DNA of 64,000 nt, from assembly GCF_003002955.1 (NCBI RefSeq), contig NZ_PVTJ01000001.1, forward strand, positions 62,001-126,000, read 5' to 3'. The notes under the pieces are model-generated. The model was given only the letters and a program-made list of their open reading frames with translations. It was not told where the DNA came from and did not search any database. Below are positions 16,869 through 28,818 of this stretch, piece by piece (the first letter of the stretch is position 1; each line of letters starts with the position of its first letter). This stretch comes from Glycomyces artemisiae. GTDB lineage: Bacteria > Actinomycetota > Actinomycetes > Mycobacteriales > Micromonosporaceae. The translations under genes and the position numbers were made by a program.

Positions 16869-18434
16869 ATGACCGCAACCGACCGAACCCGACGCCTCGC
16901 GGCGGCGGTCGCCGCCGCGCTGGCGGCCGCCGCCGCCGCGGGCCTGTCCGCCCCGCCCGCGTTCGCGCAAAGCCCGGCGCCGACCAGCGTCTTCCTGGAC
17001 CTCGACAACCCGCAGGTCCCCGGCAACCCGCCCCGCGCCGCCAACCTCGAAGTCCTCTTCGCGGAGGATCCGACCGGGGTCCTCGCCATGCAGCTCGACG
17101 TGGACACCGCCGACGCCACCATCTACTTCGGCGCGGGGCCGGGCTGCGAGACGCCCGACAACGTCCCTAACATCGAATGCGAGATCGCCGACCCCGGCAC
17201 GTCGAACCTGTTCTCCTTCACGATCGCCGCCGCCACGGGCACCCCGCTCGGCGAGCACGACTACACGCTCACCGTCCTCCTCGACGGCGCCGAGGTCCAC
17301 ACCGAGACCGGCACGGTCGACGTCGTCGAGGACCGCTACGACGGCGTCTTCAGCGACTACGGCGCCGAGGACCTGACCTTCACCGACATCGCGGCCGGAT
17401 CGACCGTCGACGTGCAGCCGCGCTTCACGCAGCACAGCGCCCTCCCCGACGACACGTACGCCGTCGTGGCCGCGTTCGGCGCGGGCATGGCCAACATGGG
17501 CGCCGAAGGCGTCGACCACGACGCGCCGTGGGACAACTGCTCCCCGAACATCTGGGAGCCCATGTTTGCCACGCAGTTCTGCTTCTTCCTCGACTACGAG
17601 GACGCCCCCGGCACGACCTTCCAGCTCGCCGGGCCGATCGAGTACGCGATCGACGCCGACGCGCCCGGCCCCCTCGCCGTCTGCGCCTGCGGCTACAGCC
17701 TGTTCGCCGTGAACCAGGCCGTCTTCGACCGCGATTTCGGCGAACCCTGGTGGGACCCGGACTCGCCGGACCTCATGACCCTCGAAGCCGCCGCCGACCA
17801 GGACGCGATCGACGACGACAACGACGGCGACCTCGTCATCGAGACCTCCGACCGCCCCTACGACCTCGCGGTCGAAGGCGCCGACCTCCGCGGCGGCGAG
17901 GTCGAGCTGACCATCCCGATCGGCAACGACGGCCCCGCACGGGCCCTCAACCGCCCCGCGTTCGAAGGCGAGCCGTCCTACTTCGTGCGCGGACAGCTCC
18001 CCGCGGGCGCGGAGGTCGTCTCGGTCGACAACCCCGACGGCAGCGGCTGGCGCTGCTTCGACGACGCCGAACTCGACGACCGCCGCGAAGCGCTCGAAGT
18101 CGACACCGAACTCGACCGCATCGACTTCGCCTGCGCCTTCTCGGGACTCAGCCCCGGCGAGTCGGTCGACGTGACCATCACCGTCGACGTCTCGGACGCC
18201 ACCGGCGCGCCCGGCCGGGTCGAGGTCGACGCCTTCTTCCGGGGCGTCGACGGCGTGAACCTCGACGGCGACCCGTCGGACAACTCGGCGGCGCTCACGG
18301 TCGACGGCCGCTCGCTGCCGAACACCGGCTCGTCCACGATCGTGTTCGTGGCCGTCGCCGCGGGCGCGCTGGTCCTCGGCATCGTGCTCTTCATCGTCGC
18401 GCGCCGCCGCAAGCCGCCCGCGGACCCCGCCTAA
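16869..18434 (+). CDS. LPXTG-anchored secreted surface protein
   Basis: A 521-residue exported protein. Residues 1-33 form a signal peptide with an Ala-rich core ending AFAQ. The extracellular part is acidic and ends with a domain at about 340-480 resembling CARDB/DUF11-like beta domains (IPIGNDGPARALNRPAF, then SPGESVDVTITVDVSDATG). A sorting signal LPNTG lies at 483-487, then a hydrophobic helix and the tail RRRKPPADPA, the canonical sortase substrate ending. No sortase gene is nearby. ATG 16869 follows AGGGAGA. Ligand or structural role unknown. Confidence 0.8.
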   Translation: MTATDRTRRLAAAVAAALAAAAAAGLSAPPAFAQSPAPTSVFLDLDNPQVPGNPPRAANLEVLFAEDPTGVLAMQLDVDTADATIYFGAGPGCETPDNVPNIECEIADPGTSNLFSFTIAAATGTPLGEHDYTLTVLLDGAEVHTETGTVDVVEDRYDGVFSDYGAEDLTFTDIAAGSTVDVQPRFTQHSALPDDTYAVVAAFGAGMANMGAEGVDHDAPWDNCSPNIWEPMFATQFCFFLDYEDAPGTTFQLAGPIEYAIDADAPGPLAVCACGYSLFAVNQAVFDRDFGEPWWDPDSPDLMTLEAAADQDAIDDDNDGDLVIETSDRPYDLAVEGADLRGGEVELTIPIGNDGPARALNRPAFEGEPSYFVRGQLPAGAEVVSVDNPDGSGWRCFDDAELDDRREALEVDTELDRIDFACAFSGLSPGESVDVTITVDVSDATGAPGRVEVDAFFRGVDGVNLDGDPSDNSAALTVDGRSLPNTGSSTIVFVAVAAGALVLGIVLFIVARRRKPPADPA

Positions 18435-18486: not shown

Positions 18487-20100
18487 CTAGACGTCCGGTC
18501 CGGTCGCCCCCGCACGCTCGTGCGGGGGCCGCGGGTCGGCCCTGCGCAGCGCGAGTCTGAACATCGCACCTCCCTCCGGGGATTCGAGGACCTGCACCGT
18601 GCCGCGGTGCGCGAGCACCACGTCCTGCACGATCGCCAGGCCCAGTCCGGCGCCGCCGTCGTCGCGGCTGCGCGACTCGTCGAGCCGCACGAACCGGTCG
18701 AAGATCCGCCTGCGCTCCTCCGGCGGGACGCCGTTGCCGTCGTCGCCGACGTCGAGGCGCAGCCACTCGGCGTCCTCCGCGGCGAGGGTCACGGTCACCG
18801 CCGTCGCGGCGTGCCGCTGCGCGTTGTTGAGCAGGTTCCCGACGGCGCGCGCCAGGTGCCCGCGCACGCCGAACACCGACAGGTCCTCCTCGACGTCGAG
18901 CCGCACCGGCACCCGGTCCGTCGCCGCGCGCCGCGCCACCTCTTCGCGCACGAGCTCGGTGAACGGCACCTCGGCGTGCGGCGGCCGCTCCCCGGCGTCG
19001 AGCCGCGCGAGCAGCAGCAGGTCCGCCGACAGGTCCTGAAGCCGGACGACGTCGGCGAGCGTGGCTTCGAGGTCGAGCAGTTCCGGGTGCTCCCTTGCGA
19101 TCTCGATCTGGCTGCGGAGGATCGCGAGCGGGCTGCGCAGCTCGTGCGAGGCGTCGGCGACGAAGCGCCGCTGCTGCGACACCGCGTGGTCGAGCGCGGT
19201 CAGGGTCATGTTCGTGGTGACCGCGAGGCTGTGGATCTCGTCGCGGCTCGCGGGCACCGGCACCCGCCGGGACAGGTCGCCGCCGGTGATCGACATGAGC
19301 TCCTGCTGGATCGCGCCGACCGGGCGCAGCGCCCGCCGGGTCACCAGCCAGGTCACGACCGCGACGACCAGGAGCAGCGCGGGCAGCGTCCACCACATGA
19401 TCGCGGTGACGCTGCCGACGGCCTCCTCCTGCGTCTCCAGCGACGACCCCGAGTAGACGTCGTACACCGTGCCGTCCGGCGCGGTGGCGCTCATGGCCGC
19501 GAACCGGTACGACGCGTCCTCGTCGGGGAGCGCCACCGTGGCGTACTCGATCGACGACCCGACCGCGCCGCCGGAGTCCTCCACCTCGTCGGACGGCGTC
19601 TCGTCGTCATCGCCGCCGCCGTGGTCGTCGTCCTCATCGCGGTCGTCGTCATCGTCGTCCGAGTCGTCGCCGCCGGGCGTGGGGGTCCCGTCCTCGGTCG
19701 GCGACTCCGCCGCGACGGGGTCCGGCGCCGGGGCGAAGCCGCCGATCGGGCCGAGCCCTTCGAGGTCCTCGCTCGCGGCGACGACCGTGCCGTCTGAGGT
19801 GAGGATCTGCGCGGCCTCGTCGTCGTCGGGCAGCTCGATCGCGGCGGGCGCGGTGCCGGAGGCGAGCTGGCCCGCGATCGAGCGGGCGCTCACCTCGGCG
19901 GTGAGCTCGGCGCGGCCGTAGAGGTTGTCGCGCAGGAGCGTCACGACGAGGAACCCCGCGACGACGAGCGCGATGGCGACGACCACCGTGGCGCCCACCG
20001 TGGTGCGGGCGCGCACCGACTCGGGCCGCCACAGCAGCCTCCCGCCGCGGGAGTGCCGCCGGGACTCCTTGAGCGCCTGCCTCCTCACCCGCTCATCCAC
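18487..20100 (-). CDS. sensor histidine kinase with acidic extracytoplasmic loop
   Basis: A 537-residue membrane kinase. One membrane segment at about 34-56 and a second at about 235-258 enclose an extracytoplasmic region with a strikingly acidic run (about residues 140-175, mostly Asp with a few Glu, His and Gly). HAMP follows, then FVADASHELRSPL with the phospho-His, the N box GNLLNNAQRHA, and G boxes DVGDDGNGVPP and GAGLGLAIV. The GTG start at 20100 overlaps the response-regulator stop by eight bases, so the pair is coupled. The acidic loop suggests binding of cations or cationic peptides; this is inference. Confidence 0.88.
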   Translation of the reverse strand: MDERVRRQALKESRRHSRGGRLLWRPESVRARTTVGATVVVAIALVVAGFLVVTLLRDNLYGRAELTAEVSARSIAGQLASGTAPAAIELPDDDEAAQILTSDGTVVAASEDLEGLGPIGGFAPAPDPVAAESPTEDGTPTPGGDDSDDDDDDRDEDDDHGGGDDDETPSDEVEDSGGAVGSSIEYATVALPDEDASYRFAAMSATAPDGTVYDVYSGSSLETQEEAVGSVTAIMWWTLPALLLVVAVVTWLVTRRALRPVGAIQQELMSITGGDLSRRVPVPASRDEIHSLAVTTNMTLTALDHAVSQQRRFVADASHELRSPLAILRSQIEIAREHPELLDLEATLADVVRLQDLSADLLLLARLDAGERPPHAEVPFTELVREEVARRAATDRVPVRLDVEEDLSVFGVRGHLARAVGNLLNNAQRHAATAVTVTLAAEDAEWLRLDVGDDGNGVPPEERRRIFDRFVRLDESRSRDDGGAGLGLAIVQDVVLAHRGTVQVLESPEGGAMFRLALRRADPRPPHERAGATGPDV

Positions 20101-20770
20101 CGTCGGCCGCCAGCCGGTAGCCCGCCCCGCGGACGGTGGTGATGGCCGCCTTGCCGAAGGGCGCGTCGATCTTGCGGCGCAGGTTGGAGATGTAGACCTC
20201 GACGATGTTGACGTCGCCGTCGTAGGCGAAGTCCCACACGTGCTCCAGGATCTCCGACTTGGACACGACCTCCCCGGCGCGGGAGGCGAGGTATTCGAGG
20301 ACGGCGAACTCCTTGGCGGTCAAGTCGAGCGCGGCGTCGCCGCGGCGGCAGGTGCGGGTGGCCGGGTCGACGGCGAGGTCGCCGAAGCGCCACACGGCGG
20401 GCCGCGAAGCCCTGCCGCGGCGCAGCATCGCCCGGATGCGGGCCTGGAGGACCACGAAGGAGAACGGCTTGGTGAGGTAGTCGTCGGCGCCCGTGTCGAG
20501 GCCCTCGGCCTCGTCGTACTCGCCGTCCTTGGCGGTGAGCATGAGGATCGGCGTCTCGACGCCCTCGTCCCGCAGGGCCGCGCACACCTGGTAGCCGTTC
20601 AGTCCGGGCAGCATGATGTCGAGGATGATCGCGTCGTACTCGCCGCCCCTCGCCATCGCCAGGCCGGTGCGGCCGTCATGGGCCAGGTCGACGGCGTACC
20701 CCTCGGCCGCCAGCCCGGCGGCGACCACCTCGGCCAGCCGCTGCTCGTCTTCCACCATCAGCAAACGCAT
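20093..20770 (-). CDS. OmpR/PhoB-family response regulator
   Basis: 225 residues. The receiver domain has the acidic pair VEDEQ at the N-terminus, the phospho-acceptor in DIMLPGLNGYQ, a Thr in LMLTAKD and Lys in LTKPFSF. The C-terminal winged helix includes LTAKEFAVLEYLASRAGEVVS and the recognition region VNIVEVYISNLRRKI. Seven bases before the ATG is CAAGCT, a -10-like hexamer, and there is no ribosome binding site, so the message may be leaderless. The start lies 21 bases from one arm of a large inverted repeat shared with the divergent PepSY gene. Confidence 0.92.
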   Translation of the reverse strand: MRLLMVEDEQRLAEVVAAGLAAEGYAVDLAHDGRTGLAMARGGEYDAIILDIMLPGLNGYQVCAALRDEGVETPILMLTAKDGEYDEAEGLDTGADDYLTKPFSFVVLQARIRAMLRRGRASRPAVWRFGDLAVDPATRTCRRGDAALDLTAKEFAVLEYLASRAGEVVSKSEILEHVWDFAYDGDVNIVEVYISNLRRKIDAPFGKAAITTVRGAGYRLAADGG

Positions 20771-20790
20771 GTCACGAAGCTTGGCACAAG

Positions 20791-20936
20791 GAACCTGAAG
20801 CTGAGCTGAAGTCGCCGCGCGGCCCGCGGTCTCGCGATCTGCCAGCGCAAACGCCGCATGCCTTCTGTCCTACGGCCCCAACCTGAAGCCGTCTTCAGGC
20901 GACTTCAGCTCAGCTTCAGGTTCGGTGGCGCATGGT
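20791..20936. promoter_or_regulatory. divergent control region with 26-bp inverted repeat and TTCAG repeats
   Basis: Positions 20791-20816 and 20898-20923 are perfect inverted copies of each other, 26 bases long, 81 bases apart. Each arm, read towards its own gene, contains TTCAG twice at an 11-base start-to-start spacing. The right arm is preceded by a third TTCAG at 20894-20898. Exactly seven bases beyond each arm is a -10-like hexamer: CATGGT at 20931-20936 on the plus strand and CAAGCT at 20783-20778 on the minus strand. Direct repeats of this spacing are typical OmpR/PhoB sites, so this is very likely where the neighbouring regulator acts on both promoters. Confidence 0.75.
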
Positions 20937-20974: not shown

Positions 20975-21559
20975 ATGAACGACCAGACCCCGACCCAGGA
21001 CCTCTCGAAGTTCGCGAAGGCCCGCCGCTTCACCGGCCGCCACCGCACCCTCGTGATCGCCGGCGCCGCCGGCGCGATCCTCCTCGGCGGCGGCACCGCC
21101 GCCGCATTCGCGGCCGACGACGACACGTTCGACCCGGCGAACTCCGGCGGCGCGCAGACCGGCTCGACCGAGGAGCCGACCCCCGGCGAGGAGCCGACTC
21201 CCGGCGACGACCGGGACGATGACGACGACCGCGGCGGCGACTGGGACGACGCGTGGGACGACCACGGCGACGACGACTTCGTCCTCCCCGACAACGCGAT
21301 CGGCGAGGACGCGGCCGTGGAGGCCGCGCTGGCCGAGGTCGACGGCACGGTCCGCGAGGTCGACCTCGAAGGCAGCGCCGACCTCCCGGTGTGGGTCATC
21401 GACATCACCGACGCCGACGGCATCGAGTGGGACGTCGCGGTCAACGCCCTCGACGGCTCGATCCTCGGCTCCCAGCAGGACGACGACTCCGACGACGATG
21501 ACGACCACGACGACGACCGCTACGACGACGATGACGACGACTGGGGCGACGACGACTAA
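20975..21559 (+). CDS. acidic membrane-anchored PepSY-domain protein
   Basis: A 194-residue protein with a basic N-terminus, one membrane segment or uncleaved signal at about 28-48 (LVIAGAAGAILLGGGTAAAF), an Asp-rich stretch, a PepSY-like domain at about 100-165 (AVEAALAEVDGTVREVDLE, then WVIDITDADGIEWDVAVNA), and a C-terminal tail of nearly pure Asp. PepSY proteins near two-component systems are thought to modulate signalling or bind metals and peptides at the cell surface. ATG 20975 follows GAAAGGA at 20962-20968. Divergent from, and apparently co-regulated with, the response regulator. Confidence 0.82.
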   Translation: MNDQTPTQDLSKFAKARRFTGRHRTLVIAGAAGAILLGGGTAAAFAADDDTFDPANSGGAQTGSTEEPTPGEEPTPGDDRDDDDDRGGDWDDAWDDHGDDDFVLPDNAIGEDAAVEAALAEVDGTVREVDLEGSADLPVWVIDITDADGIEWDVAVNALDGSILGSQQDDDSDDDDDHDDDRYDDDDDDWGDDD

Positions 21560-28767: not shown

Positions 28768-28818
28768 GACGACGCATGGGGCCCGGCGAGCGAAGCTCGC
28801 CGGGCCCCATGCGTCGTC
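28768..28818. terminator. ileS terminator, 24-bp perfect palindrome
   Basis: Arms of 24 bases at 28768-28791 and 28795-28818 match perfectly around a GAA loop, starting three bases after the ileS stop. The inner 31 bases (28778-28808) are the same, except for one loop base, as the terminator after the toxin gene at 29503-29533. No T-run. Confidence 0.85.

Follow-up and report, generated by a model that had tools for sequence, protein, structure and literature searches.

A probable divergent control region of a two-component/PepSY locus in Glycomyces and a candidate genus-wide set of TTCAG sites

The locus and its probable control region

The window analysed here, that is, the whole 64,000-nucleotide stretch of Glycomyces artemisiae DNA, carries a divergent locus with a response regulator and a sensor histidine kinase on one side and a PepSY protein on the other (Table 1). 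By the domains tested, the regulator is a member of the OmpR/PhoB family, with matches to PF00072 (91.5 bits) and PF00486 (92.1 bits) that both exceed the cut-off. Its phosphoacceptor is presumably D51, which we assign by position. The cognate kinase is encoded in the same operon, its HAMP, HisKA and HATPase_c domains lying in the overlapping downstream gene. The regulator comes nearest to the heavy-metal CzcR/SilR/CopR subfamily TIGR01387, with 245 bits against a cut-off of 279.2, and it is likewise under the cut-off for CseB, MtrA, PhoB and the other NCBIfam equivalogs among the best 25 of 94 families. A BTAD domain was also sought in the regulator; only Response_reg and Trans_reg_C were found. 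The closest solved sequence is 1kgs, followed by PhoP (9ji3/3r0j). An LPXTG-anchored surface protein (window positions 16869-18434) is convergent with the kinase gene.

Table 1. Features of the two-component/PepSY locus, in window positions
Feature	Position	Strand	Remarks
Sensor histidine kinase (HAMP, HisKA, HATPase_c)	18487..20100	-	Pfam domains
OmpR/PhoB-family response regulator (Response_reg + Trans_reg_C)	20093..20770	-	overlaps start of kinase gene by 8 bp
-10-like CAAGCT of the regulator operon	20778..20783	-	11 bp from TTCAG, 7 bp before ATG
Left arm of the 26-bp inverted repeat	20791..20816	.	
TTCAG-n6-TTCAG pair oriented to the regulator operon	20795..20810	-	
72-bp spacer	20811..20882	.	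length conserved, sequence not
Mid-spacer motif CTGCCAGCGCRAAC	20839..20852	.	lies between the two arrays; partial conservation in Glycomyces seen by eye in the alignment
Conserved core CTGAA-n6-TTCAG-n5-TTCAG-n6-TTCAG	20883..20919	+	
Right arm of the 26-bp inverted repeat	20898..20923	.	
-10-like CATGGT of the PepSY gene	20931..20936	+	11 bp from last TTCAG
PepSY protein with N-terminal hydrophobic stretch and Asp-rich stretches	20975..21559	+	Pfam; predicted to be exported

Runs rich in Asp and Glu (20 of 30 residues) occur in both the extracytoplasmic loop of the kinase and the PepSY protein, and a comparison of 14 Glycomyces loci shows similar runs (18 to 21 of 30 residues) in their kinases. 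The presence of these runs in both proteins points to a cation or a cationic peptide as the signal.

Between the divergent genes lies a perfect inverted repeat (26/26 bp, arms 100% complementary and 81 nt apart), exactly where the initial annotation had placed it. Within the 64 kb, there is no other perfect inverted repeat with arms of at least 26 nt and a loop of up to 150. The runner-up, at 28768/28795, is a perfect hairpin (28768-28818) with 24-nt arms and a 3-nt loop, and is probably a terminator. Each arm of the 26-bp repeat contains two TTCAG boxes with an 11-bp period: the minus-strand pair appears as CTGAA at 20795-20799 and 20806-20810 on the plus strand, and the plus-strand pair occupies 20904-20908 and 20915-20919. 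The initial annotation had described the region as a mirror image. The arms are indeed identical, but an additional TTCAG (20894-20898) and a CTGAA (20883-20887) on the PepSY side had been missed and break the symmetry. The region is not a pure mirror, since the PepSY side consists of three direct boxes and one inverted box.

A -10-like hexamer follows the boxes on both sides. The seven bases originally counted between TTCAG and hexamer are correct if the count begins at the ends of the arms; from the TTCAG itself, the distance is 11 on both sides. This fixed distance supports the accompanying claim that the sites stand in place of a -35 element before both genes. The hexamer CAAGCT is kept in 13/13 Glycomyces loci measured, and because it ends 7 bp before the ATG of the regulator gene, the transcript of the regulator operon is likely to be leaderless.

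Promoter geometry and age of the arms

In the G. artemisiae genome (G000), there are 19 TTCAG-n6-TTCAG sites, compared with 2 for the reversed pattern. For a broader view of the geometry, loci were fetched without any condition on the -10 and upstream array members were set aside, leaving 107 unique pair sites, many of which are orthologous, so that they do not count independently. The hexamer pattern [TC]AnnnT is found at offset 11 in 90 of these 107 sites and is missing at that offset from the other 17. Among 17 other offsets tested, offsets 6, 10 and 16 gave one site each and the remaining 14 gave none. Even so, offset 11 is extremely strongly preferred. The sites thus have the arrangement of class II (PhoB-like) promoters, in which tandem direct repeats replace the -35 element at a fixed distance from the -10.

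The mechanism that we propose is as follows. The Asp-rich sensor kinase would phosphorylate the response regulator, which, given its OmpR/PhoB-type winged-helix domain, would bind the tandem TTCAG boxes with their 11-bp period as a head-to-tail dimer. Because the boxes occupy the -35 position, the bound dimer may act as a class II activator and recruit RNA polymerase to the -10 hexamers, which follow downstream at a distance of 11 bp. The left pair would drive the regulator's own leaderless operon, and the right pair, together with the extra upstream box, would drive the PepSY gene in mirror image. The PepSY protein, which is probably exported and is Asp-rich like the sensor loop of the kinase, could then feed back on the kinase, and the 72-bp spacer would keep the two arrays on a fixed helical phase. 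That the regulator activates its own operon and the PepSY gene alike had already been claimed in the initial annotation. Of this claim, the presence/absence comparison described below makes the regulator the likely reader of the boxes, and it is from the geometry that we infer activation rather than repression. Overall, we consider it highly probable that this is a divergent autoregulated control region in which the regulator activates both sides and to which a Glycomyces-wide set of sites belongs.

An inverted repeat of this kind might also be a recently duplicated and inverted promoter, or a hairpin serving as an RNA attenuator or a recombination substrate, rather than a pair of protein-binding sites. 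The 26/26 identity of the arms fits this explanation. In addition, the right-arm spacer between the boxes is CTTGGC in 11 of the 12 loci besides the window (G010 differs), and the window has CTCAGC in both arms, that is, the same two substitutions twice. Arms are more alike within than between species (permutation p 0.026), and five relatives carry perfect inverted repeats of 22-24 nt. However, the within-species signal is lost without the window species (p 0.31) and is weaker without G010 (p 0.08). Moreover, two pairs are already present in the compact form of the basal Glycomyces G010, where they lie 16 bp apart, with different n6 spacers and 8 mismatches over 26 nt; in the remaining 11 relatives, the arms differ at 2 to 5 positions over the full 26 nt. 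The orientation of the spacer is constant in the 12 species aligned, and the position of both arms, upstream of the two -10s, means that they would not be part of one transcript hairpin. Taken together, we regard the duplication or hairpin explanation as extremely unlikely.

Two pairs in G010 and nearly symmetric arms in the 11 other loci argue that the sites themselves are old, and the near-symmetry appears to be an old feature shared across Glycomyces; the recent duplication suggested initially is not borne out. The double change in the window would then have arisen either by homogenisation, for which template switching is one possible route, or by parallel selection acting on old sites. We also considered genus-wide concerted evolution of the arms, which is unsupported beyond the window species.

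In 12 Glycomyces loci, including the window, the regulator-side pair is separated from the core by a spacer. Its length is 72 in 8 of the 12 species (window included) and 71, 74, 83 and 83 in the others, and the mean pairwise identity of its sequence is 52%. In these 12 species, a convergent intergenic gap of similar size, taken as a control, ranges between 58 and 213 bp. This combination of a near-constant length, low identity and a variable control gap indicates that length and phase are kept and that the sequence is not. In particular, 83 equals 72+11, and the pairs of G010 are closer by 77 bp, or 7x11. It suggests an interaction between the two complexes, or a DNA geometry common to both, with the spacer holding the arrays at a fixed helical phase. 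The mid-spacer motif might be the site of a second regulator. Phase-variable inversion of the middle was rejected: the 12 aligned species share one spacer orientation, and the spacer includes neither promoter.

A conserved helical phase would also make sense if the regulator bound the arms but repressed the operon and the PepSY gene (negative autoregulation), or if it bent or looped the arms together for repression, and many response regulators are able both to activate and to repress. Against this, boxes in the place of the -35, at a fixed 11 bp from a weak -10 in 90 of the 107 sites, have the geometry of an activator. We consider repression unlikely and prefer activation of both genes. The phased mirror arms make a clean system for the mutual influence of two divergent class II promoters.

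PhoB and M. tuberculosis PhoP act at autoregulated class II promoters in which tandem direct repeats replace the -35. The present locus resembles such OmpR/PhoB systems in its domain make-up, in the repeats with an 11-bp period that replace the -35, and in its apparent divergent autoregulation. It differs from them in its TTCAG box with a three-plus-one core, its mirror symmetry, its phased spacer and its probably leaderless operon, and also in having a genus-specific set of sites that mostly face backwards in the sites examined.

Distribution of the boxes and of the regulator

We compared 22 Glycomyces genomes. The regulator gene is present in 14 of them (E 1.2e-94 or better); the other 8 contain nothing closer than distant members of the family (E about 1e-47 to 1e-49). 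In counts that are not independent, many sites being orthologous and some near-duplicate (contigs C21 and C52 of G006 carry the same pair), the full-geometry pattern CTTCAG-n5-CTTCAG-n11-TAnnnT gives 136 matches in 14/14 regulator-positive genomes, 2 to 23 in each. It gives none in the 8 regulator-negative Glycomyces and none in 39 genomes of other genera, and its reversed control gives none in all 61 genomes. The shorter pattern CTTCAG-n5-CTTCAGG has 226 matches in the 14 genomes (6 to 28 each) and 1 in the 8, with 8 and 1, respectively, for its reversed control. The triple box has 62 matches in the 14 and 0 in the 8 (controls 0). When up to 2 mismatches are allowed, the core is found in 14/14 regulator-positive genomes, in 1/8 negative ones (G003, one site with two mismatches) and, at one or two sites each, in 4/39 genomes of other genera. 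The TTCAG switch motif recurs about a dozen times per regulator-positive Glycomyces genome.

The absence of the regulator requires at least three changes (losses or gains) on the tree of one trpE-like gene, in which the regulator-negative G017 and G018 are nested among regulator-positive species. A tblastn search for the regulator, kinase and PepSY genes in 17-20 kb around trpE found none in 7/7 negative genomes examined (of 8); the same stretches contain one or two of the window's neighbour genes. G005 is a special case. Residues 1-52 are missing from its regulator gene, among them the presumed phosphoacceptor D51, and so is one left box (L017, around 1362-1560). This genome has the fewest sites of the 14 (6 pair sites, 2 full-geometry sites) and no match to the repeated element described below. 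Despite the truncated regulator, it retains its 6 pair matches and 6 triple-box matches.

Because boxes and regulator are present or absent together across the 22 genomes, this response regulator is likely to be the protein that reads the boxes. The co-occurrence, in which this locus alone was compared, fits also another gene gained and lost with the regulator. Related species without the regulator are ready controls.

For a wider comparison, we kept the best 80 of 571 loci from named relatives and sought the core in the 250 bp before the regulator gene. These 80 loci span Glycomyces, Stackebrandtia, Streptomyces, Nocardia, Microbispora, Herbidospora, Actinomadura and others, Stackebrandtia being the next genus after Glycomyces among them. 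Within these best 80 of 571 loci, the core is exact in 49 and present with up to 3 mismatches in 66, and the reversed control gives 0. At this threshold it is absent from 14/80, several of which have related CTCAG/TTCAG boxes (by eye). When the divergent neighbour is chosen with a simple ORF rule, it carries a PepSY domain in at least 41/80 and, with possible overlap between the two sets, PepSY_2 in 19/80. Outside Glycomyces, the layout is mostly compact, with boxes common to both genes (by eye).

These distributions bear on the alternative that a SARP/AfsR-type activator, rather than the two-component regulator, reads the boxes. SARP sites consist of two 11-bp direct repeats, the 3' one of which lies 8 bp from the -10. 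In the afsS promoter of S. coelicolor, on which AfsR acts, TTCAGC serves as the -35 element inside the afs box (PMC10936776). The present boxes are similar, being 11-bp direct repeats beside a -10 and sharing the TTCAG sequence, and the 5.8 Mb G. artemisiae genome has 18 BTAD-domain (SARP-type) matches. On the other hand, the regulator described here differs from SARPs in having a receiver domain and lacking BTAD, and the boxes track the two-component locus (14/14 vs 0/8 genomes) and lie before the regulator gene in Streptomyces, Nocardia and others among the best 80 of 571 loci. A SARP as the reader is thus very unlikely, and we retain the two-component regulator in this role.

We found no description of this two-component/PepSY system in the open-access literature. 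By means of sequence comparison alone, the presence/absence pattern would assign an operator and a regulon to a widespread actinobacterial system.

Backward-facing sites and the repeated unit

A genome search for TTCAG-N6-TTCAG, proposed in the initial annotation as a way to the regulon, does yield a regulon-like set, but of a kind that was not foreseen: promoter-like sites aimed into the 3' ends of genes. In Glycomyces, the regulator would control a set of pair sites that is specific to the genus and numbers about 6-28 per genome. The sites examined for orientation were the G000 matches outside the regulator locus and L041, the loci with a triple box, and 20 stretches of G004, G006 and G009 chosen mostly by the box spacer. 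Gene context was determined with a home-made ORF caller and tallied by hand, array by array. The tally omits L050, L066, L069 and L072 (regulator/PepSY loci), L059 (no downstream gene called) and L076 (inside an opposite-strand gene), and the G. artemisiae pair in L041 is outside it.

Among the 54 arrays tallied, 42 are antisense into the 3' end of the next gene and one more was settled as antisense by Pfam; the remainder are 2 sense arrays, one possibly sense, and 8 without a call or inside a gene. At same-strand gene pairs, 21 arrays face backwards and none forwards. The sites L035 3032 and L089 8110 are oriented to the end of folD (Pfam THF_DHG_CYH), against the ORF caller, and L037, again against the caller and as read by eye, may be oriented in sense to a gene that is probably nuoM.

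The faced genes, identified by Pfam where it was run and in other species matched by protein ends only, include enolase (eno), phosphofructokinase (pfkA), FolD, D-Ala-D-Ala carboxypeptidase (S13; dacB), YaaA, an ABC transporter, an amidohydrolase, a Ser/Thr-kinase-like protein and an FGGY kinase. A faced AIR-synthase-type protein is probably PurL, and a faced molybdopterin oxidoreductase, which lies beside fdhD in G000, is probably formate dehydrogenase. Pup ligase and formiminotransferase-cyclodeaminase were considered as faced genes and rejected, neither being the nearest one. Some genomic places recur across species, namely the 3' ends of pfkA (4 loci) and eno (3 loci) and the formate dehydrogenase-like gene (6 loci). 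In L040, L048, L056, L061, L063 and L071, which come from six Glycomyces genomes, a triple box is found where the molybdopterin (formate dehydrogenase-like) gene ends; the Pfam identification of this gene covers L048 and L063. The gene that follows in G000 is fdhD, and it starts 7 nt away from the outer box.

Many of the sites are arranged as tandem units at distances of mostly about 80-130 bp, and the 45-nt starts of these units are nearly identical. After the -10, a unit begins with GAAACCGGGGGCCCTTTCCCAG, followed by about 15 variable bases and then TTCGGCGTGC. With up to 2 mismatches, the 20-nt unit start is found in 13/14 regulator-positive genomes (not in G005) and also once each in the regulator-negative G003 and G018. 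The G018 copy (C35:180967, L210) has the -10-like hexamer and both conserved parts, and its TTCAG boxes are gone.

To characterise the unit, 46 repeated elements were collected, from which 8 outliers were dropped by eye; the remaining 38 were folded, and 36 of the 38 were aligned. The mean fold z was -0.07 over the 38 elements, and RNAalifold on the 36 aligned elements gave 4 pairs, none changed on both sides. A structured small RNA is thus unsupported by fold z and covariation. An Rfam search of 10 G. artemisiae loci found only two tRNAs above the gathering score. A protein-coding reading of the unit was rejected by eye on account of one-base length changes and the lack of a constant start codon. 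The unit may be a small RNA, an antisense leader or a repeat.

If it is a repeat, most of the other sites in the genus could belong to a mobile or repeat element that captured the box by chance rather than to a regulon. Dispersed tandem units with such uniform starts, a copy number as variable as 2 to 23 full-geometry sites per genome and the lack of an RNA structure signal are all compatible with this possibility. However, the sites occur in the same places in several species (the pfkA, eno and formate dehydrogenase-like loci above) and are absent together with the regulator, and the sole remnant in G018 has lost only the boxes. We consider a mobile or repeat element rather unlikely and favour a set of sites under the regulator.

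A more specific possibility, which we put forward tentatively and rate at somewhat less than an even chance, is that in Glycomyces a system whose box core is present no more than twice per genome in the other genera searched has turned into a genome-wide antisense switch. In this scheme, firing of the Asp-rich kinase/PepSY sensor would turn on backward-facing promoter arrays, whose 45-nt leader is conserved, at the 3' ends of core genes (enolase, phosphofructokinase, FolD, PurL, formate dehydrogenase and D-Ala-D-Ala carboxypeptidase). These genes would be damped either through antisense transcription or through multicopy small RNAs. Should the backward-facing sites be active as promoters, Glycomyces would offer a clear example of how, inside a single genus, a local autoregulator has evolved into a global regulator acting by antisense.

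A parallel exists in Listeria, where the two-component system LisRK drives the LhrC1-5 small RNAs from clustered, multicopy units (PMC12101431). The Glycomyces units are likewise multicopy and clustered, and are here tentatively assigned to a two-component system. Unlike LhrC1-5, these putative transcription units have no RNA structure signal and are mostly antisense against the 3' ends of genes. A second subfamily of tandem units, with a different start, lies behind yaaA (L086 4205-4549, L038 3029/3111).
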